Positions 4,479 through 30,978 of a DNA stretch of 35,846 nt are shown here, one piece after another. Position 1 is the stretch's first letter. Each line of letters begins with the position of its first letter. The position numbers and the translations under genes are program-made. This DNA comes from Rhodobacter sp. CACIA14H1 (GTDB taxonomy: Bacteria > Pseudomonadota > Alphaproteobacteria > Rhodobacterales > Rhodobacteraceae), in NCBI GenBank assembly GCA_000500915.1, contig AYNO01000019.1, positions 1 through 35,846 on the forward strand. Direction: 5' to 3'. The notes beneath the pieces are model-generated. The model did not search any database. It was not told the origin of the DNA and saw only the letters and a list, made by a program, of their open reading frames with translations.

Positions 4479-4503
4479 AACGGTTTCGGCGCGCCCCGGT
4501 TCC
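4479..4503 (-). promoter_or_regulatory. EcfG-type promoter for the 4106-4447 gene
   Basis: On the minus strand GGAAC (4503-4499), 16 bases, then CGTT (4482-4479): a perfect match to the alphaproteobacterial general-stress consensus GGAAC-N16/17-CGTT. The -10 is 32 bp from the ATG at 4447, an ordinary leader length. Confidence 0.75.
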
Positions 4504-4517
4504 GCCCTGCGGGGCGG

Positions 4518-5687
4518 TCAGGGTTGCAGGACGACCTTCACGCAGCCGTCCATCTTGTCGCGGAAGGCCTGATAGAGGTCGGGCCCGTCGGCGAGGCTGC
4601 CGCGATGGGTGACGACGAAGGACGGGTCGAAGCGGCCTTCGACGATGTGGTCCAGAAGCAGCGGCATGTAGCGTTGCACGGGCGTCTGGCCGGTGCGGAT
4701 GGTGATGCCGCGATTCATGGCCGAGCCGAAGGGGAGCTTGTCGATATAGCCGCCATAGACGCCCACGACGGAGACGGTCCCCCAGTTGCGGCAGGCATGG
4801 ATGGCCTGCCGCAGCGCGGCGGGGCGGTCGGTGCCCAGATAGGTGGCCACCTTGATGCGGTCGATCACGGCATCCGTCGTGCCCCATGTGTCGGCTTCGG
4901 ACCCCACGGCATCGATGCAGGCATCGGCGCCGCGTCCCTGCGTGCGGTCGAGGATTTCTTCCACCACGTCGCAGGAGCGGAAGTTTAGGCATTCCGCCCC
5001 CGCCTCGGCCGCCATGGTCAGCCGTTCGGGAACGCGGTCGATGGCGAAGACCCGTTCCGCGCCGAGAAGGAAGGCCGAGCGGATGGCCATCTGCCCGACG
5101 GGGCCGCAGCCCCAGACGGCGATGGTGTCGCCCTGCCGGATGTCGCAATGTTCGGCAGCCATGTAGCCCGTGGGAAAGATGTCGGACAGGAACAGCGCCT
5201 GGTCGTCCGGCATCCCCGCGGGCACGCGGATGGGGCCGACATCGGCGAAGGGGACGCGCAGGTATTCGGCCTGTCCGCCCGCGTAGCCGCCCAGCATGTG
5301 GGAATAGCCGAACATGCCTGCGGGCGAGTTGTGCCAGTACTTGCGGGCGGTTTCCCTGTCGGGGTTGGAATTCTCGCAGCCCGAGAACAGCCCGCGGCGG
5401 CAGAAGAAGCAGTCGCCGCAGGAGATGGTGAAGGGCACCACGACGCGGTCGCCGGGTTTGAGCGCGGTGGTGTCGCGCCCGACTTCCACCACTTCGCCCA
5501 TGGCTTCGTGGCCCAGCACGTCGCCGTGGTGCATGTGGGGGATCGCCCCGTCGTAGATGTGCAGGTCGGACCCGCAGATCGCGCAGGAGGTCACGCGGAT
5601 GATCGCGTCACGCCCGTCCTCGATGCGCGGATCGGGGACGGTGTCGCATTGCACCCGCCCCTTGCCGTGGAAGGTCAGCGCCCGCAT
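4518..5687 (-). CDS. Zinc-dependent alcohol dehydrogenase (MDR family)
   Basis: A 389-residue cytoplasmic NAD(P)-dependent oxidoreductase of the zinc-binding medium-chain dehydrogenase family (COG1063, formaldehyde/threonine dehydrogenase-like). Catalytic zinc ligands are visible as Cys38 (AICGSD) and His60-Glu61 (LGHEAMG). The structural-zinc lobe is intact with Cys90, Cys93, Cys96 and Cys104. The nucleotide-binding Rossmann turn is GCGPVG. The start ATG overlaps the stop of the DUF892 gene as TGATG, so the pair is translationally coupled and shares the EcfG-type promoter upstream of DUF892. An aldehyde/alcohol detoxification role under stress is inferred; the substrate is unknown. Confidence 0.9.
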
Positions 5688-6196
5688 CAGCGTTTCGCCT
5701 GAAGGTCGCTGTCGGCACGGGCCAGGAAGCTGCGCGTCAGGGGGGCCAGGTTTTCGGACAGCCAGTCGGCCATGGCGATTTCCTGCTGGAGGATCGGTTC
5801 CAGCACGGCCACGGCATCGGTCATGCCCAGTTCCTGCGCCCCCGCGATGAGCATCCGGTAGGAGGCGATTTCCATGTGTTCGAAGGTGTAGGAGGCGAGC
5901 GAGCCCTTCATCACCTCGTCCGCCGCGAAGACGCCGGAGAGGCCCTGCCCTGCCGCCATCAGCTTGCCCATCGTGTCCTTGATGGCCGAGGCACTGTCGC
6001 CATGGGTTTCCAGAAGGCGCGAGAGCGCGTCGCGCTGCGCCGTGGTTTCGCGGAGGTGCTGTTCCATCCGCATCCTGATGGCCGGATAGGTTTCCAGCCG
6101 CCCGATCTGGGCGTTCAGCATGGTTTCGGCCTGCGCCTCCATCGCATGGGCATCGCGCAGCCACATCATCCATGTTTCGTGGGCGGTGTCGGTCAT
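5687..6196 (-). CDS. DUF892 / YciE-type ferritin-like protein
   Basis: A 169-residue all-helical protein of the DUF892 (YciE/YciF) ferritin-like family, which is associated with general stress. It opens with the family hallmark [20 protein letters not shown]. Further helices carry E/H pairs ([11 protein letters not shown] and [12 protein letters not shown]) suitable for a di-iron site. The start at 6196 has AAGGAA at good spacing; twelve upstream codons are rejected. The stop overlaps the start of the alcohol dehydrogenase gene by one base. A perfect EcfG-type promoter ends 35 bp upstream. The precise biochemical role of the family is not established. Confidence 0.9.
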
Positions 6197-6230
6197 GGCG
6201 TGTTCCTTTGCTGAGGGTCCATGCCGGACC

Positions 6231-6255
6231 AACGGACGGGGCGGAGGACGGTTCC
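6231..6255 (-). promoter_or_regulatory. EcfG-type promoter for DUF892-alcohol dehydrogenase
   Basis: On the minus strand GGAAC (6255-6251), 16 bases, CGTT (6234-6231): a perfect consensus match, with the ATG 35 bp further on. It is arranged back to back with the plus-strand promoter at 6269-6294, the two -35 boxes being 13 bp apart. Confidence 0.75.
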
Positions 6256-6268
6256 GCGCCGCGGCAGA

Positions 6269-6294
6269 GGAACAGGGGGGGAGCGGGGGCCGTT
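6269..6294 (+). promoter_or_regulatory. EcfG-type promoter for the 6322-6767 gene
   Basis: GGAAC (6269-6273), 17 bases, CGTT (6291-6294): a perfect consensus match, 27 bp before the ATG at 6322. Confidence 0.75.
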
Positions 6295-6321
6295 GGCAGG
6301 GAAGGACCTATGGAGGAACCG

Positions 6322-6767
6322 ATGGCCAAGCGACCGACCCGACCGACCGATCCCGACCGGACCGATACGACCCCGCGCGGGGCGCGGACCGACAGCAATG
6401 TGACGAGGATTCCCGTGGCGGGGCGGCGCAGGCCCGCCGATGCGGTGCCGGACACGCCGTCGCCTTCGGATGACGACCTGACGGCGGATGCGCTGCGACA
6501 TGCGCTGGACCGTGGGCAGGGCGGGGACGAAGACGGATTTCATCGATCCTGCCGCCGCGCCTCTGGGCACGGATGACGAGGCGGGGGGGCATCCGCCGAC
6601 GCGCGAGCAGATCGTCGCGGCGGCGCGGCAGGAACTGGGACCGCCGCGCAGCCCGCATGAAAAGCGGGTGCGGCGGACGATCCCCGTTGCGGGCGAAGGA
6701 TGGTGTGGGGTTGGGTCTGGTGCTGGTTCTGGTGCTGCTGGTCGTGATGATGCTGGCGCTGTGGTAG
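6322..6767 (+). pseudogene. Small tail-anchored membrane protein gene with two frameshifts
   Basis: Read as one 147-residue protein if two bases are removed. The N-terminal third ([20 protein letters not shown] onward) is in frame 1. After about 6514-6516 (GGG) the natural sequence continues in frame 2 ([20 protein letters not shown], then PPTREQIVAAARQELGPP). After about 6682-6685 (CCCC) it continues in frame 3, giving LRAKDG and the membrane helix VGLGLVLVLVLLVVMMLALW before the stop at 6765-6767, two bases before the stop of the convergent gene. GGAGGA precedes the ATG, and a perfect EcfG promoter lies upstream. Each shift is explained by one extra base in a short G or C run, so this may be a decayed gene or an assembly error. 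Function unknown. Confidence 0.6.
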
Positions 6768-6769
6768 CG

Positions 6770-7021
6770 TCAGGGGTGGGCGGGCGGATCGCTGGCGGGA
6801 AAGCTGGCGTCGGACTGTTCGTCCACGATGTCCCAGCGTTCGGGGGGAAACTCCATCTCGGCCGTGCCGGCCTGACGGATGGGGCCGGAGGTGCGGGCGA
6901 CCTTCGTGCGTCTTGCGGTTTCGGCCACGCGGGCCGTGCGACCGGTCTGCAGCGTCTTGGCCAGCAGCAGTGCGGAGCCTGCGAGGAGGAGAAGCGAGAG
7001 CGTCGGGCGCATCCGGGACAT
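6770..7021 (-). CDS. Small membrane protein with C-terminal SFPASDPP motif
   Basis: An 83-residue hypothetical protein. An N-terminal hydrophobic segment (residues 6-21, PTLSLLLLAGSALLLA) is a signal anchor. A basic stretch (ARVAETARRTKVAR) follows, then a conserved tail with DEQSDASFPASDPP. This SFPASDPP signature recurs in many short proteobacterial proteins of unknown function. The start at 7021 has AAGGAAAGGA upstream, and a perfect EcfG-type promoter lies 29 bp upstream. It converges on the frameshifted gene with a two-base gap. A stress role is inferred from the promoter only. Confidence 0.75.
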   Translation of the reverse strand: MSRMRPTLSLLLLAGSALLLAKTLQTGRTARVAETARRTKVARTSGPIRQAGTAEMEFPPERWDIVDEQSDASFPASDPPAHP

Positions 7022-7049
7022 GGCAGTTCCTTTCCTTGGTCCCGGTGGC

Positions 7050-7075
7050 AACGCGGCGGTGGCGGCGGGTGTTCC
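7050..7075 (-). promoter_or_regulatory. EcfG-type promoter for the 6770-7021 gene
   Basis: On the minus strand GGAAC (7075-7071), 17 bases, CGTT (7053-7050): a perfect match. Its -35 box and that of the divergent promoter form the palindrome GTTCCCGGCGGGAAC at 7071-7085. Confidence 0.75.
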
Positions 7076-7080
7076 CGGCG

Positions 7081-7106
7081 GGAACGTGGTGGCGGGGCGC
7101 GGGGTT
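7081..7106 (+). promoter_or_regulatory. EcfG-type promoter (near match) for the 7138-7569 gene
   Basis: GGAAC (7081-7085), 17 bases, GGTT (7103-7106): one mismatch from the consensus -10. It is back to back with the perfect minus-strand promoter and 31 bp from the ATG at 7138. Confidence 0.6.
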
Positions 7107-7137
7107 GGCAGGGAAGACACCGGAGGAGGACCGAAAG

Positions 7138-7569
7138 ATGCATCCCGCGCTGACTGCACCGCTTGCCGTGGCCATAGCCCTGCCTGCCCTGTCCCTGCTG
7201 ACGGGGCGGGGGGCGCTGGCGCCTGTGAATGCCTCGGCCCACTGGCTGTGGCCGGAAGCGGGGCGCGACGGGTTCGACCCGCGCGAGACGCCGGTGGGGC
7301 TGGCGACCAACCTTGCGGCGGCGGCGATGTGGGGGGGCGTGATGGCGCTGGCCCTGCGGCGGACGCAGGCGCCCGTCCTGACGGCGGCGGGCGTGGCGGC
7401 GGGGGCGGCGCTGCTGGATTACGGGCTGCTGCCGCGCCGGATGTCGCCGGGATGGGAGAAGGCGCTGCCCGTGGGGGCCGTGGCGGCGGGGTTTGCCGCG
7501 CTGGCGGTGGGGATGCTGGCGGGGACGGTGGAGGAACGGGCGGAACCCCGTTTTCCGGTTTACGGGTAA
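7138..7569 (+). CDS. Hypothetical four-helix integral membrane protein
   Basis: A 143-residue protein with about four hydrophobic segments: LTAPLAVAIALPALSLLTG, LATNLAAAAMWGGVMALAL, VLTAAGVAAGAALLDYGLLP and VGAVAAGFAALAVGMLAGTV. A loop between the first two carries SAHWLWPEAGRDGFDPRETP. I do not recognise a named family. The start at 7138 follows GGAGGACCGAAAG. It has a near-consensus EcfG promoter divergent from the SFPASDPP gene and a bidirectional terminator just past its stop. It is probably a stress-induced inner-membrane protein, but the function is unknown. Confidence 0.7.
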   Translation: MHPALTAPLAVAIALPALSLLTGRGALAPVNASAHWLWPEAGRDGFDPRETPVGLATNLAAAAMWGGVMALALRRTQAPVLTAAGVAAGAALLDYGLLPRRMSPGWEKALPVGAVAAGFAALAVGMLAGTVEERAEPRFPVYG

Positions 7570-7575
7570 GCGAAA

Positions 7576-7603
7576 GCCCCGCCCCGGTTTCCCGGGGCGG
7601 GGC
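7576..7603. terminator. Bidirectional hairpin terminator
   Basis: A perfect 12-bp stem (7576-7587 with 7592-7603) around TTTC lies between the convergent stops at 7569 and 7626. On the plus strand it is followed by GTCCATTTT, so it most clearly serves the 7138-7569 gene; it can also stop transcripts from the KGG gene. Confidence 0.8.
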
Positions 7604-7625
7604 GTCCATTTTCCGTCGTCACCGG

Positions 7626-8078
7626 TCAGCGGTTGTTGTTGCCGCCGCCCGAGGACTGACCGCCCTTGCGGCCCGCTTCGGAGGCGCGGTCGCGGTCGTT
7701 CTTGAAGTTGCCGCCGGATTCCTCGCCGCCCTTGCGCCCGGCTTCGGCCGCGCGCTGCGGGTCGTTCTTGAAGTTTCCGCCGGACATCTCGCCCCCTTTG
7801 CGGCCGGCTTCGGCCGCGCGTTCGGGGTCGTTCTTGAAGTTGCCGCCCGAGACTTCGCCGCCCTTGCGCCCGGCTTCCGCCGCGCGTTCGGGATCGTTCT
7901 TGAAGTTGCCGGGGGATTCCGAGCCGCCCTTCGAGGCGATCTCGCGCTGCTTGTCGGGGTCCATCGCGGCGAAGCCGCGGCGGCTGTTGTCATCGCCGCC
8001 GGAACTGCCACCGGAGCTGCGCGAACTGCTGCCGCCGGATCCGCTGCCGCTGCCGCCGCGTTTGTCGTCTTCTGCCAT
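7626..8078 (-). CDS. KGG-repeat stress-induced protein
   Basis: A 150-residue hydrophilic, largely disordered protein of the KGG (GsiB/con-10-like) stress family. A Gly/Ser-rich leader is followed by the family core RRGFAAMDPDKQREIASKGG (about residues 33-52). Four tandem 22-residue units of the type GNFKNDPERAAEAGRKGG fill residues 58-145, and the tail is GGGNNNR. Such proteins are thought to protect cells in desiccation or osmotic stress; the mechanism is not established. The start at 8078 has GGAGGA upstream, and thirteen upstream codons are rejected. The gene follows the iron-permease-family gene by 35 bp. A near-consensus EcfG promoter overlaps the end of that gene. Confidence 0.9.
   Translation of the reverse strand: MAEDDKRGGSGSGSGGSSSRSSGGSSGGDDNSRRGFAAMDPDKQREIASKGGSESPGNFKNDPERAAEAGRKGGEVSGGNFKNDPERAAEAGRKGGEMSGGNFKNDPQRAAEAGRKGGEESGGNFKNDRDRASEAGRKGGQSSGGGNNNR
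7644..7907 (-). repeat. Four tandem 66-bp coding repeats (KGG units)
   Basis: Four in-frame 66-bp copies encode the 22-residue KGG unit. They differ at a few codons (DPER, DPER, DPQR, DRDR), as expected for an older tandem duplication inside the gene. Confidence 0.85.
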
Positions 8079-8113
8079 TCGTCGGTCCTCCTCGGGAGTA
8101 GGTGAGTGTCCTG

Positions 8114-8581
8114 TCAATCGCCGGAAGGGGTGGTTTGTTCCGGCCCGCGGGGGGCGATTTCCGTTGGCTTGCTGCGGTTTTGGGCCGGATTGCGCGGGGT
8201 TGACCTGCGCAGGCGGTCGGCCGCCTGTTTCATCTCGGCCAGCCGGAGAAGGCGGTCCGAAAGGGCGCGGAGTTCGTCATCCTCGAGGTTCTCGACACCG
8301 ATGAAGCGGTTGTCGGATTCGGTGGCGTAGATGAGTTCGTTCAGCTTGGTCTGGATGGCGCGGCTGTCGCGGTTCTGGGCGTGCTGGAGGAGGAAGACCA
8401 TCAGGAAGGTGACAATGGTGGTGCCCGTGTTGATGACGAGCTGCCAGGTCTCCGAGAAGCCGAAGAGCGGGCCGGTGGCCGCCCATGCCAGAACGGTGGC
8501 GAGGGCGAGGGTGAAGGCGGCGGGGCGGCCCGACCATTCGACCACGGCGCCCGAGAGTCGCAGGAAGGCGGTGCGGAACAT
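8114..8581 (-). CDS. Low-affinity iron permease family protein
   Basis: A 155-residue protein of the Iron_permease family (named after yeast Fet4, though the bacterial members are much shorter). There are two membrane helices at about 22-40 and 46-65 (FTLALATVLAWAATGPLFGF, then TWQLVINTGTTIVTFLMVFL). The characteristic cytoplasmic segment QHAQNRDSRAIQTKLNELIY follows, then a polar tail. Metal transport by such short proteins is not well established. It starts three bases after the stop of the alternative oxidase subunit I gene, so it belongs to that transcript. The association with a heme-copper oxidase suggests a link to metal supply, but this is inference. Confidence 0.85.
   Translation of the reverse strand: MFRTAFLRLSGAVVEWSGRPAAFTLALATVLAWAATGPLFGFSETWQLVINTGTTIVTFLMVFLLQHAQNRDSRAIQTKLNELIYATESDNRFIGVENLEDDELRALSDRLLRLAEMKQAADRLRRSTPRNPAQNRSKPTEIAPRGPEQTTPSGD
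8117..8141 (-). promoter_or_regulatory. Possible EcfG-type promoter for the KGG gene
   Basis: On the minus strand GGAAC (8141-8137), 16 bases, CGAT (8120-8117): one mismatch in the -10. It lies inside the last codons of the iron-permease-family gene and 39 bp from the KGG start, fitting stress induction of KGG separately from the oxidase genes. Confidence 0.45.
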
Positions 8582-8584
8582 GGG

Positions 8585-11080
8585 TCAGCCCGCGATGGCG
8601 AGGGAGGCGTGGGGGAAGGCCAGCACCACGATCCCCGTCACGGCCTGCCAGCGGTTCCATGTGGACAGCAGGCGCATGTCGGTGCGGCGGGCGTCGGAGA
8701 TGCGGCCCTGCAGCCTGCGGGCGATCGCGATGGCGCCGATGATGCTGCCGATGCCGCCATGGATGCAGAGCCACAGATAGAGCGCGAAGTGGGTGGCAGG
8801 CGCGGCGTGGGTGGTCGCGCCTTCGATGGTCTGCATCATGGCGATGGGGGTCAGCAGGACCGCGAGGTTCCATGTGAAGGCGCCGAGGATGTCGATCATC
8901 GCCTTGCGCCCGCGGCGGAGCGCCTTGTCGGCGGTGACGACCGCGCCGATCAGCGAGCCTGCCGTCACGAGCTGGAGTCCGGTGGGGATCTGCGGCAGGG
9001 GGGCGGCGTCCCAGTTGGGCGCGAAGGCGGTCAGGTAGAGGCAGGCGAAGACGAGCGAGGCGAGTGCGGCCGCGTCTGCGGCGATGGCGGTGCGCAGGCC
9101 ATAGACCAGCGGGCTGCGCGGGTGTTCGGTGTGTGGGGGCAGATGGGTGCCCTGCCCCGCCCCGATGCTGCCATGGTCGCGGCTGGTGGCGGGGTGCGGG
9201 GGCCACGAGGCGAGGATCGCCACGGCAAGGACGGCCAGCGCGGCGGCGAGGGTGTAGCTTTTCGCCAGCACCGCCATGACGGTGGCCGCCAGCACCAGCG
9301 CGGACCAGAGCGGACGGAAGCTGCGGGCGGGAAGGAGGATGACCTGTTCCGGTTCCGCCGTCACCGGATGGACGCCCATGGTTTCCATCCAGCCGTTGCG
9401 CGGCAGCGAGAGGTATCCGTCGCCACGCGCCGTCTGTTCGGCGATGCGGCGGGGATGCAGGGCGTCGGCGCGGCCTTTCACGGCGGGGATGGCGTCGAAG
9501 AGGTAGGGCGCGGGGGGCAGCGTGGGGGTCGCCCATTCCAGCGTCGCACCGCGCCACGGGTCCGGCGGGGAGCGGTGGGCGAAACGGGTGGAGAGCAGGA
9601 GATCGATGAAGACGGCGGCAAAGCCTGCGGCCATGACGAAGCTGCCCGCCGAGGAGACGAGGTTTGGCCATGTCCAGCCGGCATCGGCGGCGTAGCTTGC
9701 CACGCGGCGCGGCATCCCGAGCAGGCCCGTCAGGTGCATCACGCCGAAGGTCGCATTCATCCCGAGGAAGGTCAGCCAGAAGGCGGCGCGGGACAGCCAG
9801 CCTTCGGGCCTGCGCCCGGTGGCGAGCGGGAGCCAGTGGTAGAGCGCGGCGACCATGGGAAAGACGAAGCCGCCGAGAAGGACGTAATGCATGTGCGCGA
9901 CGACGAAGTGGGTGTCGTGTGCTTGGAGGTCGAAGGGGACGACGGCCAGCATTACGCCGGTCAGCCCCCCCGCCGTGAAGGTGAAGAAGAAGCCCAGAAC
10001 CCAGAGCATCGGGACGGGCAGCCTATCGCCCTTTGGCCTGCCGTTGGCGCGGGCCAGCGTGGCGATCCATGCGAAGACCTGGACACCGGTGGGAATGGCG
10101 ACCAGCAGGGAGGCCGCCGAGAACAGGCCGACTGTGCCATGGTGGATGCCTGCCGTGAACATGTGGTGTCCCCAGAGCAGGAAACTGAGCCCCGCGACCG
10201 AGAGGATCGCGCCGATCACCCAGCGGTGCGCCACGAGCGGGCGGCGGGCGAAGACGGGGACGATGGTGGAGATAACCGCGGCTGCGGGCAGGAACATGAC
10301 ATAGACTTCGGGATGGCCGAAGGACCAGAAGAGGTGCTGCCACAGGAGCGGGTCGCCGCCCCGCGCCGGATCGAAGAAGGGGACGCCCAGCGTGCGCTCT
10401 GCCTCGAGCAGGGTGGAGGCGACGATGAGGGGCGGGAATCCCAGCAGCATCATCGCGCCTACGACAAGCATGGTCCAGACCATGACGGGCATGTCCATCA
10501 GCCGCATCCCCGGCGCCCGCAGCAGAAGGACGGAGACGGTCAGTTCGACGGCGGCGGCGATGGCCGAAATCTCGACGAAGGTGATGCCGAGGAGCCAGAG
10601 GTCGGAGCCGATGCCGGGGGAAAAGGCGGACGAGGACAGCGGCGGGTAGAGGAACCAGCCTGCATCGGGGGCAAGGCCCATGCCCATGGCCGTGAGCAGG
10701 ATCAGCCCGCCGAAGAGATAGCACCAGTAGCCGAAGGCCGACAGGCGCGGAAAGGCGAGGTCGCGCGCGCCGAGCATCTTTGGCAGCAGGACCATCGCCA
10801 GACCTTCCAGCAGGGGAATGGCGAAGAGGAACATCATCACCGTGCCGTGGACGGTGAAGACCTGTGCATAGCGGCCCGGCGGCAGGAAGGCCGAGTCCGG
10901 TGTGGCAAGCTGGACGCGCAGGAGCATGGCCAGCAGCCCGCCGATGGCGAAGAAGGCCAGCGAGGTGAGGATGAAGCGCAGGCCGATGACATGGTGGTTG
11001 ACGGCGGCAAGGCGGCCGATGCCGGGTCCGGTGGCCCAGATGCGTTCCAGTTCGTCCTGATCGGCGGTGTGGTCCCTCAT
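8585..11080 (-). CDS. Cytochrome c oxidase subunit I with fused C-terminal (subunit III-like) extension
   Basis: An 831-residue heme-copper oxidase subunit. Residues 1 to about 520 are the subunit I core with all heme and CuB ligands visible: FTVHGTVMMF (low-spin heme), FGHPEVY (CuB His, D-channel Glu and the His-Tyr cross-link pair), GHHMFTAG, and HDTHFVVAHMHYV. The extension from about 590 adds roughly seven hydrophobic segments, consistent with a degenerate fused subunit III. The K-channel lysine is Gln334 (PTGVQVFAW), while the ctaD in this window keeps it (PTGIKVFSW). The D-channel entry Asp is kept (ARDLAFPR), but the downstream Asn is Ser. It overlaps the subunit II gene by 4 nt. It is probably a proton-translocating terminal oxidase with altered pumping. 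Confidence 0.88.
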   Translation of the reverse strand: MRDHTADQDELERIWATGPGIGRLAAVNHHVIGLRFILTSLAFFAIGGLLAMLLRVQLATPDSAFLPPGRYAQVFTVHGTVMMFLFAIPLLEGLAMVLLPKMLGARDLAFPRLSAFGYWCYLFGGLILLTAMGMGLAPDAGWFLYPPLSSSAFSPGIGSDLWLLGITFVEISAIAAAVELTVSVLLLRAPGMRLMDMPVMVWTMLVVGAMMLLGFPPLIVASTLLEAERTLGVPFFDPARGGDPLLWQHLFWSFGHPEVYVMFLPAAAVISTIVPVFARRPLVAHRWVIGAILSVAGLSFLLWGHHMFTAGIHHGTVGLFSAASLLVAIPTGVQVFAWIATLARANGRPKGDRLPVPMLWVLGFFFTFTAGGLTGVMLAVVPFDLQAHDTHFVVAHMHYVLLGGFVFPMVAALYHWLPLATGRRPEGWLSRAAFWLTFLGMNATFGVMHLTGLLGMPRRVASYAADAGWTWPNLVSSAGSFVMAAGFAAVFIDLLLSTRFAHRSPPDPWRGATLEWATPTLPPAPYLFDAIPAVKGRADALHPRRIAEQTARGDGYLSLPRNGWMETMGVHPVTAEPEQVILLPARSFRPLWSALVLAATVMAVLAKSYTLAAALAVLAVAILASWPPHPATSRDHGSIGAGQGTHLPPHTEHPRSPLVYGLRTAIAADAAALASLVFACLYLTAFAPNWDAAPLPQIPTGLQLVTAGSLIGAVVTADKALRRGRKAMIDILGAFTWNLAVLLTPIAMMQTIEGATTHAAPATHFALYLWLCIHGGIGSIIGAIAIARRLQGRISDARRTDMRLLSTWNRWQAVTGIVVLAFPHASLAIAG

Positions 11081-11844
11081 GGTTGCGACTCCAGCCAGCG
11101 GGCGAAGGTTTCGGGGGGCATCACCTCGACCATGAAGGGCATCCCGGGGTGGCCGATGCCGCAGTATTCGGCGCAGAGGCCTTCGTGGAAGCCGGGGGTT
11201 CCGGTGCGCAGCCACATCGTGGTCCGGTGGCCGGGGGTGGCATCGACCTTGCCCCCCAGTTGCGGCACCCAGAAGCTGTGGATGACATCCTCGGACAGGG
11301 TGGTGATCTCGATGTCGGTGGCGGCGGGAAGGCGCAGTATGCCGGGGGTGGCGGCGATGCGCGGGTGGTCCGTGTAGCGGAAGCGCCATTCCCACTGGCG
11401 GGCGGTGGCTTCGATCCTGAGGGGCGCTTCGTGGGGCGAGAAGCGGTGCATGGCGCCGCCCGTGACGGTGGCCCCCGCTGTCAGGGCGACGACGGCCGCC
11501 AGCGGCAGGGCGATGCCGCCCGCGACGAGGAAGGCGCGGTCGGGGACACGGCGGAGGAGGGCGGGGCGGAATGTGGCGACGAGTGCCAGGGCCGTGACGG
11601 CCAGCAGGACCGCGATGCCGCCGCCCAGCATGGCCCACCAGAGCCGGGCGACGGCTTCGGCGAAGGGCGATGCGGGCTGGAGCGTGGATGTGGCGGACTG
11701 GCAGCCGGTCGTCAGGAACCCCGCGCCCCCGAAGGCCGTTCGCCCTGCATGGACGACGGTGAACGATCCCCCGCGCGTGACACTGACCTGTCCGGCGCCG
11801 CGCAGATGGCCGACACGGCCTCGACCGTGGCGCTGGCCGGGCAT
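11077..11844 (-). CDS. Cytochrome c oxidase subunit II (CuA), lipoprotein-like N terminus
   Basis: The electron-entry subunit of the alternative oxidase. The mature part begins at the lipobox FLTTGC, whose Cys codon is 11703-11701, leaving 208 residues. It has two membrane helices (AMLGGGIAVLLAVTALALVA; FLVAGGIALPLAAVVALTAG) and a periplasmic cupredoxin domain. The CuA site is complete: HSFWVPQLGGKVD, then CAEYCGIGHPGM with both Cys, Glu, His and Met, so it accepts electrons from cytochrome c, not quinol. The start is unclear: no ATG, GTG or TTG lies in frame between the lipobox and the ATG at 11844, which gives an odd 47-residue leader overlapping the divergent DUF2231 gene. The stop overlaps the subunit I start as ATGA. 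Confidence 0.8.
   Translation of the reverse strand: MPGQRHGRGRVGHLRGAGQVSVTRGGSFTVVHAGRTAFGGAGFLTTGCQSATSTLQPASPFAEAVARLWWAMLGGGIAVLLAVTALALVATFRPALLRRVPDRAFLVAGGIALPLAAVVALTAGATVTGGAMHRFSPHEAPLRIEATARQWEWRFRYTDHPRIAATPGILRLPAATDIEITTLSEDVIHSFWVPQLGGKVDATPGHRTTMWLRTGTPGFHEGLCAEYCGIGHPGMPFMVEVMPPETFARWLESQP
11715..11740 (+). promoter_or_regulatory. EcfG-type promoter for DUF2231, inside the subunit II reading frame
   Basis: GGAAC (11715-11719), 17 bases, CGTT (11737-11740): a perfect match. The DUF2231 ATG at 11806 is 65 bp further; an earlier in-frame ATG at 11749 would be almost leaderless. The promoter overlaps the coding region for the subunit II signal sequence on the other strand. Confidence 0.65.
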
Positions 11845-12270
11845 CCGCTTCATGCGATGATGATACATTTCCCGATTGCCTTCGGTCTGGCCGCGCTGGC
11901 TTGCGACGGGATGCTGTGGTGGGGTGGCGATCCGTTCTGGATGCGGGCGGGGCTGTGGGCTACGGGCGGGGCCTTCCTGACGGGTGTGGCCGCCGGGGTG
12001 GTGGGCCTTGCGGAGCTGCTGCTGGTGCCGGGCATCCGGTTGCGGCTGTCGGGCTGGGCCCATGCGGTGGCGGCGACGGTCCTGATTGCCGTGCTGGGCG
12101 CGAACTGGCTGCTGCGGCTGGTCCGGCCCGAGGACGCTGTCGGGTCCGGTCTGGCGCTGTCGGCGCTGGGGGCGGTGATGACGGGGGTTGCGGGGTGGCA
12201 TGGGGGGAAGCTCATCTATCATCACGGGCTGGCGGTGCTGCCGCAGGAGGAAAGCGAGACCGAGGCCTGA
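11806..12270 (+). CDS. DUF2231 family membrane protein
   Basis: A 154-residue integral membrane protein of the DUF2231 family. It begins with the hallmark VALAGHPLHAMMIHFPIAFG, whose paired histidines could bind heme or metal. About four membrane helices follow, with GWAHAVAATVLIAVLGANWL and a C-terminal GVAGWHGGKLIYHHGLAV segment. The last has the histidine-rich GWxGGxLxYxHG pattern typical of the family. ATG 11806 is chosen because the family start lies just before the AGHPLH motif; ATG 11749 would add 19 polar residues. Transcription is probably from the EcfG promoter at 11715-11740. The gene overlaps the end of the convergent CopD-like gene by 49 bp. A role in membrane redox or metal handling is inferred. 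Confidence 0.8.
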   Translation: MADTASTVALAGHPLHAMMIHFPIAFGLAALACDGMLWWGGDPFWMRAGLWATGGAFLTGVAAGVVGLAELLLVPGIRLRLSGWAHAVAATVLIAVLGANWLLRLVRPEDAVGSGLALSALGAVMTGVAGWHGGKLIYHHGLAVLPQEESETEA

Positions 12271-12728
12271 GCCAGTTGCCGCAGGGCGCCGGGATCGAGG
12301 CAGGCGCCCAGATCGGGCAGCGCGGGTTTGGCAAGGACGGTGACGAGGACGGACAGGGCCAGACCGGAGCTGACCGAGGCGGAGGCGCGCAGGAGGTTCG
12401 GGGTCGGTGCGGCATCGGCGCCGAAGGTGGCGATGACCTGTCGCGCGGCGAGGACATGCATCACCGCAAGCCCCGCGACCAGCCAGAGCTTCAACGAGAA
12501 CCAGTCGGCGGCGAGGCGTGTCAGGCCGGCGAGGGCGAGTCCGGTGACAATGGCAAGGATCGCTGCGGGCGACAGGAGGACGAGATAGGCATGACGCGCC
12601 GCGCGGTGCAGCCTGCCCTGCGCCGCCGCGTGGCGGGCCTGCACGAGCAGGAGTGGCAGAGCGACGAGCCCTGCGATCCAGAGCGAGACGGAAAGGATGT
12701 GGATGGTCTTGAGCCAGAGCACGGCCAT
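12222..12728 (-). CDS. CopD/HemJ-like membrane protein
   Basis: A 168-residue integral membrane protein with four predicted helices. The opening WLKTIHILSVSLWIAGLVAL has the Trp-Lys-x2-His-Ile and Trp-x-Ala-Gly pattern shared by the CopD copper-resistance domain and by HemJ-type protoporphyrinogen oxidases. Later helices include YLVLLSPAAILAIVTGLALA and WLVAGLAVMHVLAARQVIAT. The start at 12728 has TGGAG seven bases upstream; an in-frame ATG at 12740 is an alternative. The C-terminal 49 bp overlap the DUF2231 gene. Proximity to heme-copper oxidase genes suggests a copper or heme role, but sequence alone cannot separate the two. Confidence 0.75.
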   Translation of the reverse strand: MAVLWLKTIHILSVSLWIAGLVALPLLLVQARHAAAQGRLHRAARHAYLVLLSPAAILAIVTGLALAGLTRLAADWFSLKLWLVAGLAVMHVLAARQVIATFGADAAPTPNLLRASASVSSGLALSVLVTVLAKPALPDLGACLDPGALRQLAQASVSLSSCGSTASP

Positions 12729-12781
12729 CGGCGACTCCATCGCTGGGCAGGTCCGGAAAGGGCCGCCGCCGGCGGGCCGGT

Positions 12782-12806
12782 GGAAGGGCGGGGTGCCGCC
12801 CCTTCC
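12782..12806 (-). terminator. Hairpin terminator of the PRC-barrel gene
   Basis: GGAAGGGCGG pairs with CCGCCCCTTCC (one bulged base) around GGTG, 16 bp past the stop at 12822 on the minus strand. Confidence 0.6.
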
Positions 12807-12821
12807 GGAAGTGCGGGAGCG

Positions 12822-13775: not shown

Positions 13776-13914
13776 CTGGACGTTCCTTTCTCATCGGATT
13801 GCTGTCCGCATGGCCCGGGAGCGTGGGCCTGCCCGTCCCCAACACCCAACTTGGAAAAAGGTTCGCTGCCCGCATTGCTTATTGGTCCGCTTGCGGCGGC
13901 AACGCGCCGAGCCG

Positions 13915-16041
13915 TCAGGGGGCGCCGGGGATGCCGAAGGCGGCGGTCCGGCCACTTCCGGCAAGCGGTATGCCTTTTGCCCTGAGCCGTTCGGTCAGCC
14001 TGCGGTTGACCTCGCGTCCCAAGGCCCATTGCTTGCCGGGCGCCGTGCGGAGTGTGCCTTTGATGATGATGCCCGTGGGGCTGATCTGGTCCACGCCCCA
14101 GAGGTCGAAGGGGGCAAGGGCGATGCCTGCAAAGGCGGGATCGGCGGCGGTTTCCGACGCCACGTCGCGCAGTGCGGCGAGCGCGGCATCCACATCCGCA
14201 CCGGGGGCAAGGGCGGCGGATACGGTATAGACGCCATAGCCGCGCGACGTGTTGCGCAGGGTCGTGACCGAGGAGAAGGGGATGGAATGCAGCGCTCCGT
14301 CCCCGTCGCGCAGGCGCAGGGTGCGGATCGTCAGCCCTTCGACAGTGCCGGTCTTGCCTGCGGCTTCGACCGTTTCGCCCACGGCGATGGCATCTTCGGC
14401 GATCAGGAAGAGGCCGGTGATGACATCGCGCACCAGTTGCTGTGCGCCGAAGCCGATGGCAAGGCCCGCGACCCCCGCCCCTGCCAGCAGCGGTGTCACG
14501 TCGAGTCCGAGGTTGGACAGGACAAGGATCGTGCCGATCACCGCAAGGGCGACGAGGGCCGCATTCCGGAGCAGGGGGACGAGGGTGCGGGCACGGGCCG
14601 AGGGGCTGGCGCTGCCGGAGGGATGCCGCGACAGGGACCATGCGGCCAGCGCATCGATCACCGCGCGGACCAGCCAGACGGCGAGGATCACGGCGGCGAT
14701 GGCAGCAAGGGGGCGCAGGACGGGGGCGCCCTGTCCGGTGGACCAGCGGAGCGGTTCGAGACCCCATGCCGACAGCACTGCGGTCAGCGCGGCGAGGATG
14801 ATGCCGGCCTGCACGGCCATGCGCAGCACATGGCCCGTGCGCATGGCAAGGGCGAGGCGCAGGCTTTCGGGGCCCGTCCGGCCCATGCGGGCCAGCAGCC
14901 CCGCGTGGGCCCGTTCCACCCCGAGCGTAAGTGCGAAGGCCGCCAGCAGGGCCGCGACCGACAGCCCGGCCGAGAGGAGGAAGCCGTCCCCGCGTGCGCC
15001 GCTGCCCAGCCGTGCCAGCAGGTTGAGCAGGACGAAGGCGGCGGCCAGCCGGTGCCAGTTGCGGGCGATTGCCGCCATGGCCCGTTCGGTGGCCGTGGGC
15101 GGATCTGCGGCGGGCGTGGCGGAGGGCGCGTCCAGCAGGAAGCGGATGGCGGGGCGTTCGGCGTGGATCGCCAAGAGCGCAAAGACCGCCGCGACCAGAT
15201 CGATGGTAAGGGAGGCGAGCGAGGCGATGCCGGGGCCGAGAGCCGCCCTTCCGGCCGGGCCGGCGACAAGGCGGGCGGCGGTGGCCGTGGCGGCGGTCCA
15301 GCCGACCAGTGGCCGGGGACGCGGAACCGAGGGGCGGCAGGCCGCCAGCGCGACGAGGAGGTAAAGCCATCCCAGCGTGGCCAGCGCCAGCCCTGCGGCA
15401 AGGCCGGTCATGGCCGGAAGCAGGAAGGTGCCCGCCGCCGCGCCGTCGAGCCGCAGGGCAAACGGCCAGAGCGCCGTCACGGCGGCGGCGCAGAGGACGG
15501 GGACCAGCGAGAGGACCGCGTGACGGAGGGCGAGGAACAGGCTGCTGCCCCATGTCCGTGCTGCGCAGGCCCGCGCGGCGATGCGGTCCCGGCGGCCGGC
15601 GGTCGCCCATCCGGCGGCAATCCAGACGGCAAGCGCCAGACCCCATCCCGGCAGGGCAAGGGCAAGATCGCTGCCGGGCGGGAGCAGGGGGCGTCCCACC
15701 GCGATGCGGGTGCGCCCCTCGGCCAGGGCGCGGCCGATATCGCGTTTCAGCCCGAGAAGGCGGTCGCGTCCCGGCAGGGCGGCGACGGTGCGCCCGATCC
15801 CTTCGGTCAGGGTTTCCAGCGGGCCGGCCGGCGGCGGGTTGGCCGCGGCCTGCGGCGGGCTGCGCAGGGACGAGATGGCGTCGGCAAGGGCCTGTCGCCG
15901 GGCATCGTCCTGCAGAACCTCCAGCGCACGGTCCAGCGCGAGGAGATCCGCCGCCGTGGCATCGGGCGCGGCATCCTGCGCGATTGCGGGTGGAGCAAGG
16001 AACAGGACCAGCGCCACGGCGAGGGCGGTTCTGACGGGCAT
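13915..16041 (-). CDS. MscS-family mechanosensitive channel, large form
   Basis: A 708-residue inner-membrane channel that would release solutes on hypo-osmotic shock. A signal peptide (1 to about 22, ending PAIAQ) leads a helical periplasmic domain to about residue 125. About ten membrane helices follow. The MscS core is near residues 520-640, with the pore and beta-domain segment LLAGAGVAGLAIGFGAQQLV, RDVITGLFLIAEDAIAVGE and the following VEAAGKTGTVEGLTIRTLRL. The C-terminal domain has SIPFSSVTTLRNTSRG. The start at 16041 has GGAG seven bases upstream. A near-consensus EcfG promoter (GGAAC-N16-GGTT) lies 26 bp upstream, fitting osmotic or general stress control. Divergent from the TadE gene. 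Confidence 0.9.
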   Translation of the reverse strand: MPVRTALAVALVLFLAPPAIAQDAAPDATAADLLALDRALEVLQDDARRQALADAISSLRSPPQAAANPPPAGPLETLTEGIGRTVAALPGRDRLLGLKRDIGRALAEGRTRIAVGRPLLPPGSDLALALPGWGLALAVWIAAGWATAGRRDRIAARACAARTWGSSLFLALRHAVLSLVPVLCAAAVTALWPFALRLDGAAAGTFLLPAMTGLAAGLALATLGWLYLLVALAACRPSVPRPRPLVGWTAATATAARLVAGPAGRAALGPGIASLASLTIDLVAAVFALLAIHAERPAIRFLLDAPSATPAADPPTATERAMAAIARNWHRLAAAFVLLNLLARLGSGARGDGFLLSAGLSVAALLAAFALTLGVERAHAGLLARMGRTGPESLRLALAMRTGHVLRMAVQAGIILAALTAVLSAWGLEPLRWSTGQGAPVLRPLAAIAAVILAVWLVRAVIDALAAWSLSRHPSGSASPSARARTLVPLLRNAALVALAVIGTILVLSNLGLDVTPLLAGAGVAGLAIGFGAQQLVRDVITGLFLIAEDAIAVGETVEAAGKTGTVEGLTIRTLRLRDGDGALHSIPFSSVTTLRNTSRGYGVYTVSAALAPGADVDAALAALRDVASETAADPAFAGIALAPFDLWGVDQISPTGIIIKGTLRTAPGKQWALGREVNRRLTERLRAKGIPLAGSGRTAAFGIPGAP

Positions 16042-16066
16042 CGGAAACTCCGCTTCGGTCAGGTGG

Positions 16067-16091
16067 AACCGGGGGGAGGAGGGAATGTTCC
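16067..16091 (-). promoter_or_regulatory. EcfG-type promoter (near match) for the MscS gene
   Basis: On the minus strand GGAAC (16091-16087), 16 bases, GGTT (16070-16067): one mismatch in the -10, the same variant as at 7103-7106. It is 26 bp from the MscS start. Confidence 0.55.
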
Positions 16092-16225
16092 GCCGCAGCG
16101 CAGAGGTGCCTTCCGGCAGCGGGACATTCTGCGAATGCCGCCGTTCCGACAAAGCGCCGCCGGAATTCGGCCCGAATCTACAACAATCACGGTGATAATC
16201 ATTCCGAATTGCGGAGGTGATTTCC

Positions 16226-16636: not shown

Positions 16637-16638
16637 CC

Positions 16639-17943: not shown

Positions 17944-17945
17944 CG

Positions 17946-28944: not shown

Positions 28945-29021
28945 CTGTCGCTCCCTGCCGGTTGGTCGGGGCATCATGGCAGCGGGGGGCGGAAGGGAAA
29001 CCAAGTTCGGCGGGGGATCGG

Positions 29022-29044
29022 CAAGTTTTTCTTGTCTATCGACA
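29022..29044 (-). promoter_or_regulatory. Probable operator: adjacent palindromes upstream of the operon
   Basis: CAAG-N5-CTTG (29022-29034) is followed at once by TGTC-TATC-GACA (33-44, that is 29033-29044). The half-sites lie about 80 bp upstream of the first start codon and are the best candidate sites for the operon's own LysR regulator. Inference from position and symmetry only. Confidence 0.4.
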
Positions 29045-29139
29045 GCCGCACCGGCTGTGCCGGATGTTGTGCCGCATTCTGTACCGCAAACTGTCAGCAC
29101 GCAGCGGGCGGTGGTTTAACCTTTGCGCTTCGGGCGGGG

Positions 29140-29186
29140 GCGAAATCTGGCGCAGATTTCGCGGCGTTTTCTGAAGCAGAAATCGC
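29140..29186. repeat. First pair of 23-nt hairpin elements
   Basis: Two 23-nt units one base apart (29140-29162 and 29164-29186). Each is GCG, six bases, a five-base loop, six complementary bases, CGC. Arms are AAATCT/AGATTT (loop GGCGC) and TTTTCT/AGAAAT (loop GAAGC, one mismatch). The arm sequences differ but the pairing is kept. Confidence 0.75.
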
Positions 29187-29208
29187 ATGGCAGGCGGCGG
29201 GCGGGGGG

Positions 29209-29255
29209 CCCGAATTTGCGTCAGATTCCGGCGCGGTTTGTGCGTCACAAACCGC
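29209..29255. repeat. Second pair of 23-nt hairpin elements, covering the ctaD stop
   Basis: The same layout as the first pair, 69 bp away: units 29209-29231 (arms GAATTT/AGATTC, loop GCGTC) and 29233-29255 (arms GTTTGT/ACAAAC, loop GCGTC, full GCG/CGC clamp), one base apart. The ctaD stop codon (29247-29245) lies in the last loop, so this hairpin may also end the ctaD transcript. Confidence 0.75.
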
Positions 29256-30921
29256 TTCGGTGGCGGGGATGGCGGTCCCACTGGTCGGGGGTGGGCAGCA
29301 CCTCGAACGTGTGTTCGGGCGGTGGCGAGGGGAGCGTCCATTCCAGCGTGTCGGCATGTTCGTTCCACGGGTTCGCCACGGACAGCCTGCGGCCACGGGT
29401 CAGCGTCCAGACCATCGTGCCGAGGAAGAAGAGGAAGGAGACGAAGGACAGGAACGCGCCGAGGGTGGAGAGGCTGTTCCAGTAGGCGAAGGCCTCGGGG
29501 TAGTCGATGTAGCGGCGGGGCATCCCCTGACGGCCGAGGAAGTGCTGCGGGAAGAAGGTCAGCATGACGCCGGTGAAGAAGGACCAGAAATGGGTCTGTG
29601 CCGCCCATTCGGGATAGGCGCGTCCCGTCATCTTGGGCAGCCAGTAGTAGATGCCCGCGAACAGGGCGAAGACGGCGCCGATGGACATGACGTAGTGGAA
29701 ATGGGCCACGACGTAATAGGTGTCGTGATAGTAGCGGTCCATGCTGGCCTGCGACAGGACAACGCCCGTCACGCCGCCCAGCGTGAAGAGGAAGATGAAG
29801 CCGATGGCGAAGAGCATGGGGGCGCGGAGTTCGACGGAGCCGCCCCACATGGTGGCGATCCACGAGAAGACCTTGATGCCTGTCGGGACGGCGATCACCA
29901 TCGTGGCCAGCATGAAGTAGCTTTGCTGGGTCAGCGACATGCCCGCCGTGTACATGTGGTGCGCCCAGACGGCGAAGCCCAGCACGCCGATCCCGACCAG
30001 AGCATAGACCATCGGCAGGTAGCCGAAGATGGGCTTGTGCGAGAAGGTGGAAACTACGTGGCTGATGATGCCGAAGCCCGGCAGGATGATGATATAGACC
30101 TCGGGGTGGCCGAAGAACCAGAGGAGGTGCTGGTAGAGGACCGGGTCGCCCCCGCCTGCCGCGTTGAAGAAGGTGGTGCCGAAGTTGCGGTCGGTCAGTA
30201 GCATGGTGATGGCGCCGGCCAGCACGGGCAGGGCCAGCAGGATCAGCCATGCGGTGACAAAGACGGACCATGCGAAGAGCGGCACCTTGTGCAGCGTCAT
30301 CTTCGGGGCGCGCATGTTGAGGAAGGTGGTGATCATGTTGATCGCGCCGAGGATCGAGGACGCGCCGGAGACATGGACGGCGAAGATGGCAAGGTCGGCG
30401 GCGAAGTTGGCTTCCGTCGTGGACAGCGGGGGGTAGAGGACCCAGCCCACGCCGGTGGAGAGCTGGTCGTTGCCGCCCGGCGAGAGGAAGGAGGCGATGC
30501 CCAGTGCCACGCCCGCCACGAACAGCCAGTAGGACAGGTTGTTGAGGCGGGGGAAGGCCATGTCGGGCGCGCCGATCTGCAGCGGCAGGAAGTAGTTGCC
30601 GAAGCCGCCGAACAGCGCGGGGATCAGCACGAAGAACATCATCAGCACGCCGTGATAGGTGACGAAGCTGTTGTAGCGGTGGCCGTCCGGCGTACAGTCG
30701 CCCTGCGGCCAGAGGCGCAGCCCTTCCTGGCAGATGAATTGCACGCCCGGTTCCATCAGTTCGATCCGCATGAGGACCGAGAGGATCACGGCGATCAGGC
30801 CGACGAGGGCGGCGGTCAGCAGGTAGAGGATGCCGATGTCCTTGTGGTTGGTGGACATCAGCCAGCGGTGGACAAAGGCCGGACGGCGCGGCTGCGGCAC
30901 GGGCAGGTGGGCGTCGGTCAT
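29245..30921 (-). CDS. ctaD: Cytochrome c oxidase subunit I (aa3 type)
   Basis: A 558-residue canonical aa3-oxidase subunit I with twelve membrane helices. The heme and CuB ligands are present ([42 protein letters not shown]). D-channel residues Asp ([12 protein letters not shown]) and Glu (HPEVY) and the K-channel Lys350 (PTGIKVFSW) are all in place. The N terminus [20 protein letters not shown] is typical. It stands alone without subunit II or III, as in Rhodobacter and Paracoccus ctaD loci. GGAGGATCCC precedes the start, and a perfect EcfG promoter lies 33 bp upstream. The last codons and stop lie in a hairpin element. Confidence 0.95.
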
Positions 30922-30953
30922 GGGATCCTCCGGGGCGGCGCGTCCTGTCGCCC

Positions 30954-30978
30954 AACGTCGCGGGCGGGGCGACGTTCC
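30954..30978 (-). promoter_or_regulatory. EcfG-type promoter for ctaD
   Basis: On the minus strand GGAAC (30978-30974), 16 bases, CGTT (30957-30954): a perfect consensus match, 33 bp from the ctaD start. It sits in the 66-bp gap after the NTF2-like gene and lets ctaD be induced by general stress independently of that gene. Confidence 0.7.

Follow-up and report, generated by a model that had tools for sequence, protein, structure and literature searches.

Control by the sigma factor EcfG is commonly regarded as part of the core physiology of the Alphaproteobacteria. In the scheme of this general stress response (GSR), PhyR is phosphorylated by a stress-sensing HWE kinase and then sequesters the anti-sigma factor NepR, which frees EcfG. 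Free EcfG transcribes operons situated behind GGAAC-N16/17-NGTT, its own divergent phyR/nepR-ecfG operon included. The motif described for Rhizobium etli is GGAAC-N16-CGTT (PMC3892343) and that for Sphingomonas melonis is GGAAC-N17-20-GTT (PMC6599016). PMC3892343 describes all members of the EcfG1 subgroup as chromosomal and all members of the EcfG2 subgroup as plasmid-borne, and its tree covers selected Rhizobiales, Caulobacterales, and Sphingomonadales. For Rhodobacter sphaeroides, loss of PhyR is reported not to impair significantly the resistance to oxidative, heat, and osmotic stress, and the protein is shown to act in membrane stress (PMC5830050). In Dinoroseobacter shibae, the 153-kb chromid pDSHI02 carries Dshi_3834-3836, described as a kinase, a sigma factor, and a hypothetical protein, and up in starvation with light/dark cycles versus dark (PMC4373377, PMC9426580). 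The chromid is reported essential under salt shock (PMC9426580). The words EcfG and PhyR are absent from PMC4373377 and NepR is absent from PMC9426580; current annotation of Dshi_3834-3836 reads kinase, sigma factor, and NepR.

The window analyzed here is a stretch of 35,846 nucleotides from Rhodobacter sp. CACIA14H1, a genome that belongs to the genus of Gemmobacter aquarius. The initial annotation read it as a dense cluster of EcfG promoters. A motif scan of both strands finds six exact GGAAC-N16/17-CGTT matches, identical in position and strand to those first listed; with two GGTT sites, these make up the EcfG-type motifs (GGAAC -35, (C/N)GTT -10, 16–17 bp spacer) found before window starts. 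One hundred dinucleotide shuffles of the window give a mean of 0.43 matches (largest 4, none reaching 6), in agreement with the earlier estimate of fewer than one by chance. The expectation drawn from the 69 exact sites in the 3,874,320 bases of the genome is 0.64, with a binomial P = 4.6e-5 for at least six. Distances run from the final T of CGTT to the start codon, with starts as called by a home-made gene caller. All six sites had been placed 27–65 bp from a start; five are found at 27–34 bp, but the site before DUF2231 is 65 bp away only if the ATG at 11749 (8 bp) is passed over for an in-frame ATG at 11806.

Four of the six sites are convincing as predicted promoters because their genes keep GGAAC-N16/17-NGTT approximately 28–32 bp upstream in G. 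aquarius. The first, GGAAC-N16-CGTT at 4479–4503 (minus strand), is 31 bp before the 4447 gene (4106–4447, minus), which encodes a 113 aa protein with a single hydrophobic stretch and a Pro/Thr-rich tail. A Pfam search matched no family to this protein; it matches the G. aquarius plasmid protein at 201897 (74% over 94 aa), and the orthologue displays GGAAC-N16-GGTT at 31 bp. The second, also with N16 (6231–6255, minus), is 34 bp before a DUF892 and alcohol dehydrogenase gene pair. The 169 aa DUF892 protein (5687–6196, minus; PF05974, E-value = 1.8e-44) presumably has a ferritin-like fold. The 389 aa zinc-dependent alcohol dehydrogenase (4518–5687, minus; PF08240 and PF00107) scores under the cut-off of TIGR02819, the glutathione-independent formaldehyde dehydrogenase family. 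Its start overlaps the DUF892 stop, and the two genes probably form one operon.

Divergent from the DUF892 site is GGAAC-N17-CGTT at 6269–6294 (plus), 27 bp before the 6322 gene (6322–6767, plus), which encodes a small protein with a C-terminal hydrophobic segment. By three-frame translation its reading frame appears to be shifted twice in this assembly; the matching G. aquarius reading frame has GGAAC-N17-GGTT approximately 28 bp upstream. The fourth site, GGAAC-N17-CGTT at 7050–7075 (minus), is 28 bp before the SFPASDPP gene (6770–7021, minus). The 83 aa product carries an SFPASDPPA motif, matches no family in Pfam or NCBIfam, and shares 55% over 78 aa with G. aquarius, where an exact CGTT site precedes the orthologue by 32 bp.

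The near matches described for the 7138, MscS, and KGG genes are all present upstream, at 31, 25, and 38 bp, and are plausible as EcfG promoters. Back to back with the SFPASDPP site stands GGAAC-N17-GGTT at 7081–7106 (plus), a probable promoter of the 7138 gene (7138–7569, plus). This encodes a 143 aa hydrophobic protein, again with no family matched in Pfam or NCBIfam; the G. aquarius counterpart matches at 63% over 112 aa and has GGAAC-N16-TGTT at 29 bp. GGAAC-N16-GGTT at 16067–16091 (minus) is a probable promoter of a 708 aa MscS-family mechanosensitive channel (13915–16041, minus; PF00924 and PF21088). A weak EcfG-like site read by eye, GGAAC-N16-CGAT (or N17-GATT) at 8117–8141 (minus), overlaps the end of a called iron-permease gene and precedes a 150 aa KGG repeat protein (7626–8078, minus; PF10685, E-value = 2.1e-41, five matched stretches). 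Its G. aquarius orthologue is preceded by GGAAC-N16-GATT.

The two remaining exact sites are doubtful as EcfG promoters. That at 11715–11740 (plus), before the DUF2231 membrane protein (11749–12270, plus; PF09990, E-value = 2.6e-29), overlaps the called reading frame of the divergent gene coxB in its 5′ part. That at 30954–30978 (minus) is 32 bp before the start, at 30921, of ctaD, the 558 aa cytochrome c oxidase subunit I (29245–30921, minus; TIGR02891 above cut-off, PF00115). It is an 8-bp inverted repeat (AACGTCGC...GCGACGTT) immediately after the stop codon of the gene upstream, and a hairpin with AACG...CGTT arms yields half of the EcfG motif by construction. The fold is unexceptional (z = 0.73) and a terminator scan found no terminator there. 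The coherent stress set first proposed stands for DUF892, KGG, the small uncharacterized proteins, and perhaps MscS; ctaD fits less.

Conservation in relatives had been named as a check, and the sites do recur before the G. aquarius orthologues of five genes (6322 by position), with the -35/-10 arrangement kept and the spacers differing. The counterparts of DUF892, 4447, SFPASDPP, and 7138 show GGAAC-N16/17-NGTT 29–32 bp upstream; the G. aquarius DUF892 reading frame is itself shifted. A close DUF892 homologue is found in one of 40 relatives searched (G008, 70–71%), with a partial one in G010 (53%), so that a single genome provides most of the evidence for conservation in the genus. Among 80 DUF892 homologues of named genomes, 62 have GGAAC, with NGTT 16–17 bp on, 36–80 bp upstream versus 10 with the reversed word CAAGG in the same interval, but Mesorhizobium and Sinorhizobium are strongly represented among these loci, which are therefore not independent. 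GGAAC is absent from the expected interval in five of the six Rhodobacterales-like DUF892 loci (L157, L158, L159, L204, and L223) and present in the sixth, L182.

A GC-rich genome could yield GGAAC...CGTT by chance, with short intergenic gaps mimicking proximity to starts. The raw counts agree with such a composition artefact: the genome holds 69 exact sites and 69 reversed-motif controls, G. aquarius holds 70 versus 179, and the ctaD match is an inverted repeat. Since the motif is no more common than its reversed control and 36 of the 69 sites are inside called genes, the first reading's own ground for refutation, a motif equally common within genes across the genome, applies by half. What argues against an artefact is position. 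Intergenic sites directed at a start 15–70 bp downstream number 18 of 69 versus 1 of 69 reversed controls (Fisher P = 2.4e-5). The window and a second contig, C1, which carries the regulator genes, together make up 2.6% of the assembly and hold 16 of the 69 sites (1.8 expected, P = 2e-11); 11 of these 16 are promoter-positioned versus 7 of 53 elsewhere. In a genome of the same genus whose best EcfG matches are only 24–30% identical (G003; 58 sites in total), 1 of 30 examined sites is promoter-positioned. With the arrangement kept before the five G. aquarius genes as well, a composition artefact is very improbable. The comparison of density across the genome, also proposed at the outset, thus backs the EcfG reading through both clustering and promoter position.

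The cognate system is found at C1:54750-58131, where profile searches identify PhyR (PRK09191 family) and an EcfG-type sigma factor (PRK12546), both above NCBIfam cut-offs, NepR (PF18557, above cut-off), and an HWE/HisKA_2 kinase. phyR is divergent from nepR-ecfG and the kinase gene is adjacent. Between phyR and nepR are two overlapping divergent sites, C1:55587-55611 (plus), 38 bp before nepR, and 55594-55618 (minus), 37 bp before phyR, putative autoregulatory promoters. Further C1 sites are 28–38 bp before DUF1328, DUF3008, and CsbD genes. The initial annotation, confined to the window, could see neither this locus, which lies on a different contig, nor the replicon context of the relatives.

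We infer, with a probability of about 0.85, that the left portion of the window forms one flank of a GSR island whose sites are read by RNA polymerase with the EcfG-type sigma factor encoded on C1. The cognate system, the promoter-position enrichment, and the recurrence in G. aquarius support the core of this reading, which covers the four convincing sites and probably also 7081–7106 and 16067–16091. Under stress, the HWE kinase would phosphorylate PhyR, PhyR would capture NepR, and the freed EcfG would bind these sites and transcribe the window operons and its own divergent phyR/nepR-ecfG operon. GGAAC-type -35 elements are common to ECF sigma factors, and the genome encodes more ECF-like proteins, at C38 and C98 (weak matches, 26–27% identity), so that another ECF sigma factor (RpoE/ChrR-like or a second ECF) might read the sites instead. 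We consider this improbable: the spacing and -10 equal the published EcfG motifs (PMC3892343, PMC6599016), and ecfG itself lies amid clusters of such sites in this genome, G007, G. fulvus, and D. shibae.

Judging by the gene order of G. aquarius, C1 and the window appear to be neighbors. The order is taken from its plasmid at 207.6–211.6 kb; the contig ends show no overlap. Of the 34 called window proteins, only 8 have matches of at least 45% identity on that plasmid, and the rightmost two thirds of the window falls outside the shared block.

G. aquarius, G. fulvus, and D. shibae each carry the regulators together with many predicted promoters on an extrachromosomal replicon. The G. aquarius plasmid has 18 of 70 genome sites in 6.8% of the genome, pDSHI02 has 17 exact sites versus 3 controls, and the G. 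fulvus p2 stretch has 10 versus 0. On the G007 chromosome, 10 of 76 sites are within 25 kb around ecfG. The clustering could still be accidental, a local grouping of stress genes particular to this assembly: 7 of the 18 promoter-positioned sites are elsewhere in the genome, 15 of 49 distinct non-plasmid G. aquarius sites are promoter-positioned, only 3 of the 10 G007 island sites meet the 15–70 bp rule, and Roseobacter litoralis pRLO149_94 is a counterexample, with regulators present but 3 exact sites, none promoter-positioned, and 5 controls. Given the four further co-clusters, on replicons or stretches picked for carrying ecfG and not randomly drawn, such an accident is unlikely.

Extrachromosomal replicons of this kind are marked by a DnaA-like rep, ParA, and ParB. 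Of the 7 genomes with the 88–100% EcfG type, 5 (G008, G010, G012, G013, and G016) have ParB of the G. aquarius plasmid type on the GSR-locus contig; no homologue was found in the present assembly (88% complete, 236 contigs). The promoters themselves are ordinary; the packaging of regulator and regulon on accessory DNA is notable. Tentatively, and at somewhat less than even odds, the Rhodobacterales GSR may be a portable module, in which phyR-nepR-ecfG-kinase and a dense share of promoters are carried on chromids, plasmids, or compact chromosomal islands, the sigma factor also driving genes of the host chromosome. If so, a whole cell would gain or lose its general stress tolerance along with a single replicon, and the 7 of 19 same-genus genomes without a close EcfG might be accounted for in this way. 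Stress tolerance would then be an acquirable trait, gained or lost as a package. Packaging would also offer a reason for the essentiality of the D. shibae chromid under salt shock, and a control mechanism is proposed for several small uncharacterized proteins (SFPASDPP, 7138, 4447).

The locus resembles the alphaproteobacterial PhyR-NepR-sigma EcfG system in its regulators, their divergent arrangement, the adjacent HWE kinase, the promoter motif, its distance to the start, and small targets of stress type, among them CsbD and DUF1328 proteins. It differs from the usual system in that a portion of the likely regulon is gathered around the regulator genes (approximately 100 kb here), and in close relatives this cluster is on an accessory replicon. 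As with R. sphaeroides (PMC5830050), the PhyR is a Rhodobacterales homologue. pDSHI02 likewise holds kinase, sigma factor, and NepR together with its EcfG sites, but its gene set overlaps that of the window only partly. R. etli EcfG2 is likewise an EcfG-type sigma factor on a plasmid (PMC3892343), whereas the relatives considered here carry the entire phyR-nepR-ecfG-kinase locus on a plasmid.

All six perfect GGAAC-N16/17-CGTT sites reported in the initial annotation (4503-4479, 6255-6231, 6269-6294, 7075-7050, 11715-11740 and 30978-30954) were recovered at these positions by motif search. The estimate of less than one perfect match by chance in the window also holds, as dinucleotide shuffles give 0.43 and none of 100 reaches six. 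The site density of the genome itself gives an expectation of 0.64 (six observed, binomial P = 4.6e-5). Five sites lie 27–34 bp before a start codon; at DUF2231 the distance is 8 or 65 bp. The observation is thus confirmed, and its reading as EcfG promoters is supported for four of the six sites and for two or three near matches. The DUF2231 and ctaD sites are doubtful. The former (11715-11740) shares bases with the 5′ part of coxB as called, and the DUF2231 start position is uncertain. The latter (30954-30978), which follows a stop codon, is itself an inverted repeat of 8 bp, and because of this repeat its status as a promoter is doubtful. The fold is unexceptional (z = 0.73) and a terminator scan detected no terminator there.

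Downstream of the 6269 promoter, the small protein gene at 6322-6767 (+ strand) displays two reading-frame changes. Its counterpart in G. aquarius (plasmid NZ_CP028919, about 199612-199940) shows a frame change too, at a different place. These may represent decay, recoding, or indels introduced by the sequencing of G-rich runs. On the minus strand, positions 8585-11080 encode an 831 aa cytochrome oxidase subunit I that is extended by a long stretch at its C-terminus, the COX1 match covering residues 32–482 with a score just under the CtaD equivalog cut-off. Positions 1571-3745, also on the minus strand, encode a long protein that combines RTX calcium-binding repeats with a C-terminal domain of the serralysin type.

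A comparison of motif density across the genome, proposed in the initial annotation, is uninformative as a raw count but telling with respect to position. There are 69 exact sites in 3.87 Mb and the reversed-motif control also gives 69; raw density was therefore dropped and position used as evidence instead. Promoter position was defined as intergenic, 15–70 bp before a start and oriented toward it. By this rule 18 of 69 sites are promoter-positioned versus 1 of 69 controls (Fisher P = 2.4e-5), and 36 of the 69 sites fall inside called genes, as expected of chance matches. Genes surrounding the 69 sites and 69 controls were called with a codon-usage script rather than a standard gene finder. 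When checked on the 18 exact sites of the G. aquarius plasmid, the script assigned promoter position to 5 before retraining and to 9 once retrained; by annotated starts, read by eye, 11 of 18 are situated 28–46 bp before a start, one of these inside an annotated divergent gene.

The regulators of the general stress response are found on another contig of the same genome, C1. Here nepR lies between the divergent phyR and an ECF sigma gene, followed by a HisKA_2/HWE kinase gene. NepR (PF18557), PhyR (PRK09191, with PF22029, PF22233 and a receiver domain) and the sigma factor (PRK12546) all score above cut-off. The phyR-nepR gap contains two exact sites, divergent and overlapping, and exact sites are also found 28–38 bp upstream of DUF1328, DUF3008 and CsbD genes. 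A similar overlapping pair, two GGAAC-N16-NGTT matches on opposite strands, is present in the window at 16065-16091, between MscS and a TadE-like gene. C1 also carries a second NepR-like reading frame (L032, 15125-15355, + strand) at 22 bits, below the 25.7 cut-off, which overlaps the end of a convergent 796-aa gene; an NCBIfam search of this frame gave zero matches.

C1 holds 10 and the window 6 of the 69 exact sites. Together these 16 sites fall in 2.6% of the assembly, where 1.8 are expected (P = 2e-11), and 11 of the genome's 18 promoter-positioned sites are among them. Genes from the window's left end have matches on the G. aquarius plasmid: an HTH gene at 208.3–208.8 kb and the two genes after it as far as 207.6 kb. 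The two genes that open C1 match 208.9–211.6 kb with opposite sense. This gene order suggests that the window and C1 probably belong together, head to head, with approximately 0.1 kb between them. Since no sequence overlap was found between the contig ends, the joining is one we infer. At a threshold of at least 45% identity, matches on the G. aquarius plasmid were obtained for only 8 of the 34 proteins in the window and 23 of the 62 in C1, thus the shared part is a block and not the whole contigs. The ParB of that plasmid was not found in the window's own genome, and the window is therefore not claimed as plasmid DNA. RepC-type genes of this genome are located on two other contigs, C186 and C235.

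Conservation of the sites is seen in G. aquarius. On its plasmid, counterparts of DUF892, 4447, SFPASDPP and 7138 have GGAAC-N16/17-NGTT 29–32 bp upstream and the 6322 counterpart about 28 bp upstream, as do a ferritin-like protein gene (33 bp) and a catalase gene (28 bp). For KGG, inspection by eye of both genomes shows GGAAC and, after a spacer of 16 or 17 bp, GATT. The same upstream check of the PRC-barrel and ADH counterparts gave zero motif matches. When NGTT other than CGTT is taken as the −10, 23 additional sites appear on the plasmid, of which 10 are promoter-positioned versus 0 of 10 reversed controls. The DUF892 homologue (200064-200569) is split over two reading frames with its promoter site kept, and is without a gene entry in the PLSDB table. 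Among 40 relatives a close DUF892 homologue is found only in G. aquarius, with a partial one in G010. By this distribution the cluster itself is accessory.

The upstream regions of 80 DUF892 loci from named genomes were surveyed as well. GGAAC occurs 36–80 bp before the start in 62 loci, all with NGTT 16 or 17 bp on, and the reversed word CAAGG occurs in this interval in 10 of 80. Strict CGTT is found in 8 of 80, and was rejected as the −10 form for other genera, where NGTT is the general form. The 18 loci without GGAAC include three from Halomonas, Pollutimonas and Candidimonas, which are outside the Alphaproteobacteria. Five others (L157, L158, L159, L204, L223) are from Tabrizicola, an alphaproteobacterial MAG and Gemmobacter, and thus are evidence against universality in this order.

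Among 19 genomes of the genus, EcfG is present at 88–100% identity in seven (G000, G008, G010, G012, G013, G015, G016) and at 66–69% in five (G001, G007, G014, G017, G018); seven, including G003, have no match above 39%. NepR was rejected as a marker of the response, as G001, G007, G017 and G018 are NepR-negative yet carry EcfG homologues at 66–67%. NepR counts are for this reason lower bounds (at least 89 of 198 family genomes and at least 8 of 19 genus genomes). G007 was rejected as a control free of the response, since ecfG is present, and G003 was used instead. For both, positions were counted with the forward motif alone. In G003, 1 of 30 examined sites (58 in total) is promoter-positioned. 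In the one-contig genome G007, 62 of 76 sites were examined (30 + 22 + 10 of an island). The 25-kb island surrounding ecfG holds 10 of the 76 sites, 9 of the 10 intergenic and 3 meeting the 15–70 bp rule, versus 2 of 52 examined outside. This chromosomal island (G007 C1:1902718-1927939) belongs to a second EcfG lineage (67% identical) and includes a 2796-aa gene.

In G. aquarius the regulator locus is at 42.0–45.4 kb on the 284-kb plasmid (NZ_CP028919.1, 284,025 bp), which carries DnaA-like, ParA-like (AAA ATPase) and ParB genes at 151–155 kb. A 6.5-kb query from the second contig of the relative G008 matched this plasmid record at 100%, and G008 is G. aquarius. The plasmid has 18 of the 70 exact sites in 6.8% of the genome, half of the 18 promoter-positioned by script. 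The remaining 52 places reduce to 49 distinct sites after dropping duplicate IS copies; 15 of the 49 are promoter-positioned, which suggests that the regulon probably extends to the chromosome. The plasmid's ParB shares a contig with ecfG in five of the seven genomes of the 88–100% EcfG type.

In PLSDB, EcfG homologues (E ≤ 1e-30) are found in 38 of 72,556 plasmid records, including G. fulvus, D. shibae, R. litoralis, Ketogulonicigenium and Pseudorhodobacter. D. shibae pDSHI02 (the first 150,000 of 152,970 bases examined) has 17 exact sites versus 3 controls, with 11 versus 0 promoter-positioned; the 11 include sites in front of nepR-ecfG, a DNA-starvation protein gene, DUF1328 and a PRC-barrel gene. 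On G. fulvus p2 (48.7 of 310.7 kb examined), 10 exact sites stand against 0 controls, and 7 of them are promoter-positioned. R. litoralis pRLO149_94 has 3 exact sites versus 5 controls and none promoter-positioned, a clear counterexample with regulators on a plasmid without such promoters. On pDSHI02 (NC_009956.1) the exact site 121263-121288 points at a series of genes on one strand (113801-121288), from gluconate 2-dehydrogenase subunit 3 through to coxB and ctaD; the window likewise has a cytochrome oxidase cluster beside stress genes.

The window motif equals the EcfG motifs in passages of published reports on R. etli (GGAAC-N16-CGTT; PMC3892343) and S. melonis (GGAAC-N17-20-GTT, with many tabled distances of 24–50 bp; PMC6599016), thus the promoters in themselves are ordinary, of a kind already known. 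Passages on the 153-kb chromid of D. shibae report a kinase, a sigma factor and a hypothetical protein of this replicon as induced (PMC4373377) and describe the replicon as essential during salt shock (PMC9426580). A literature search of titles, abstracts and some passages, with most subscription journals outside its coverage, gave no account of a Rhodobacterales plasmid or chromid that carries both a primary general stress response locus and the promoters belonging to it. The finding added here, with one clear counterexample, is the computed packaging of regulator and predicted regulon together on accessory DNA in relatives.
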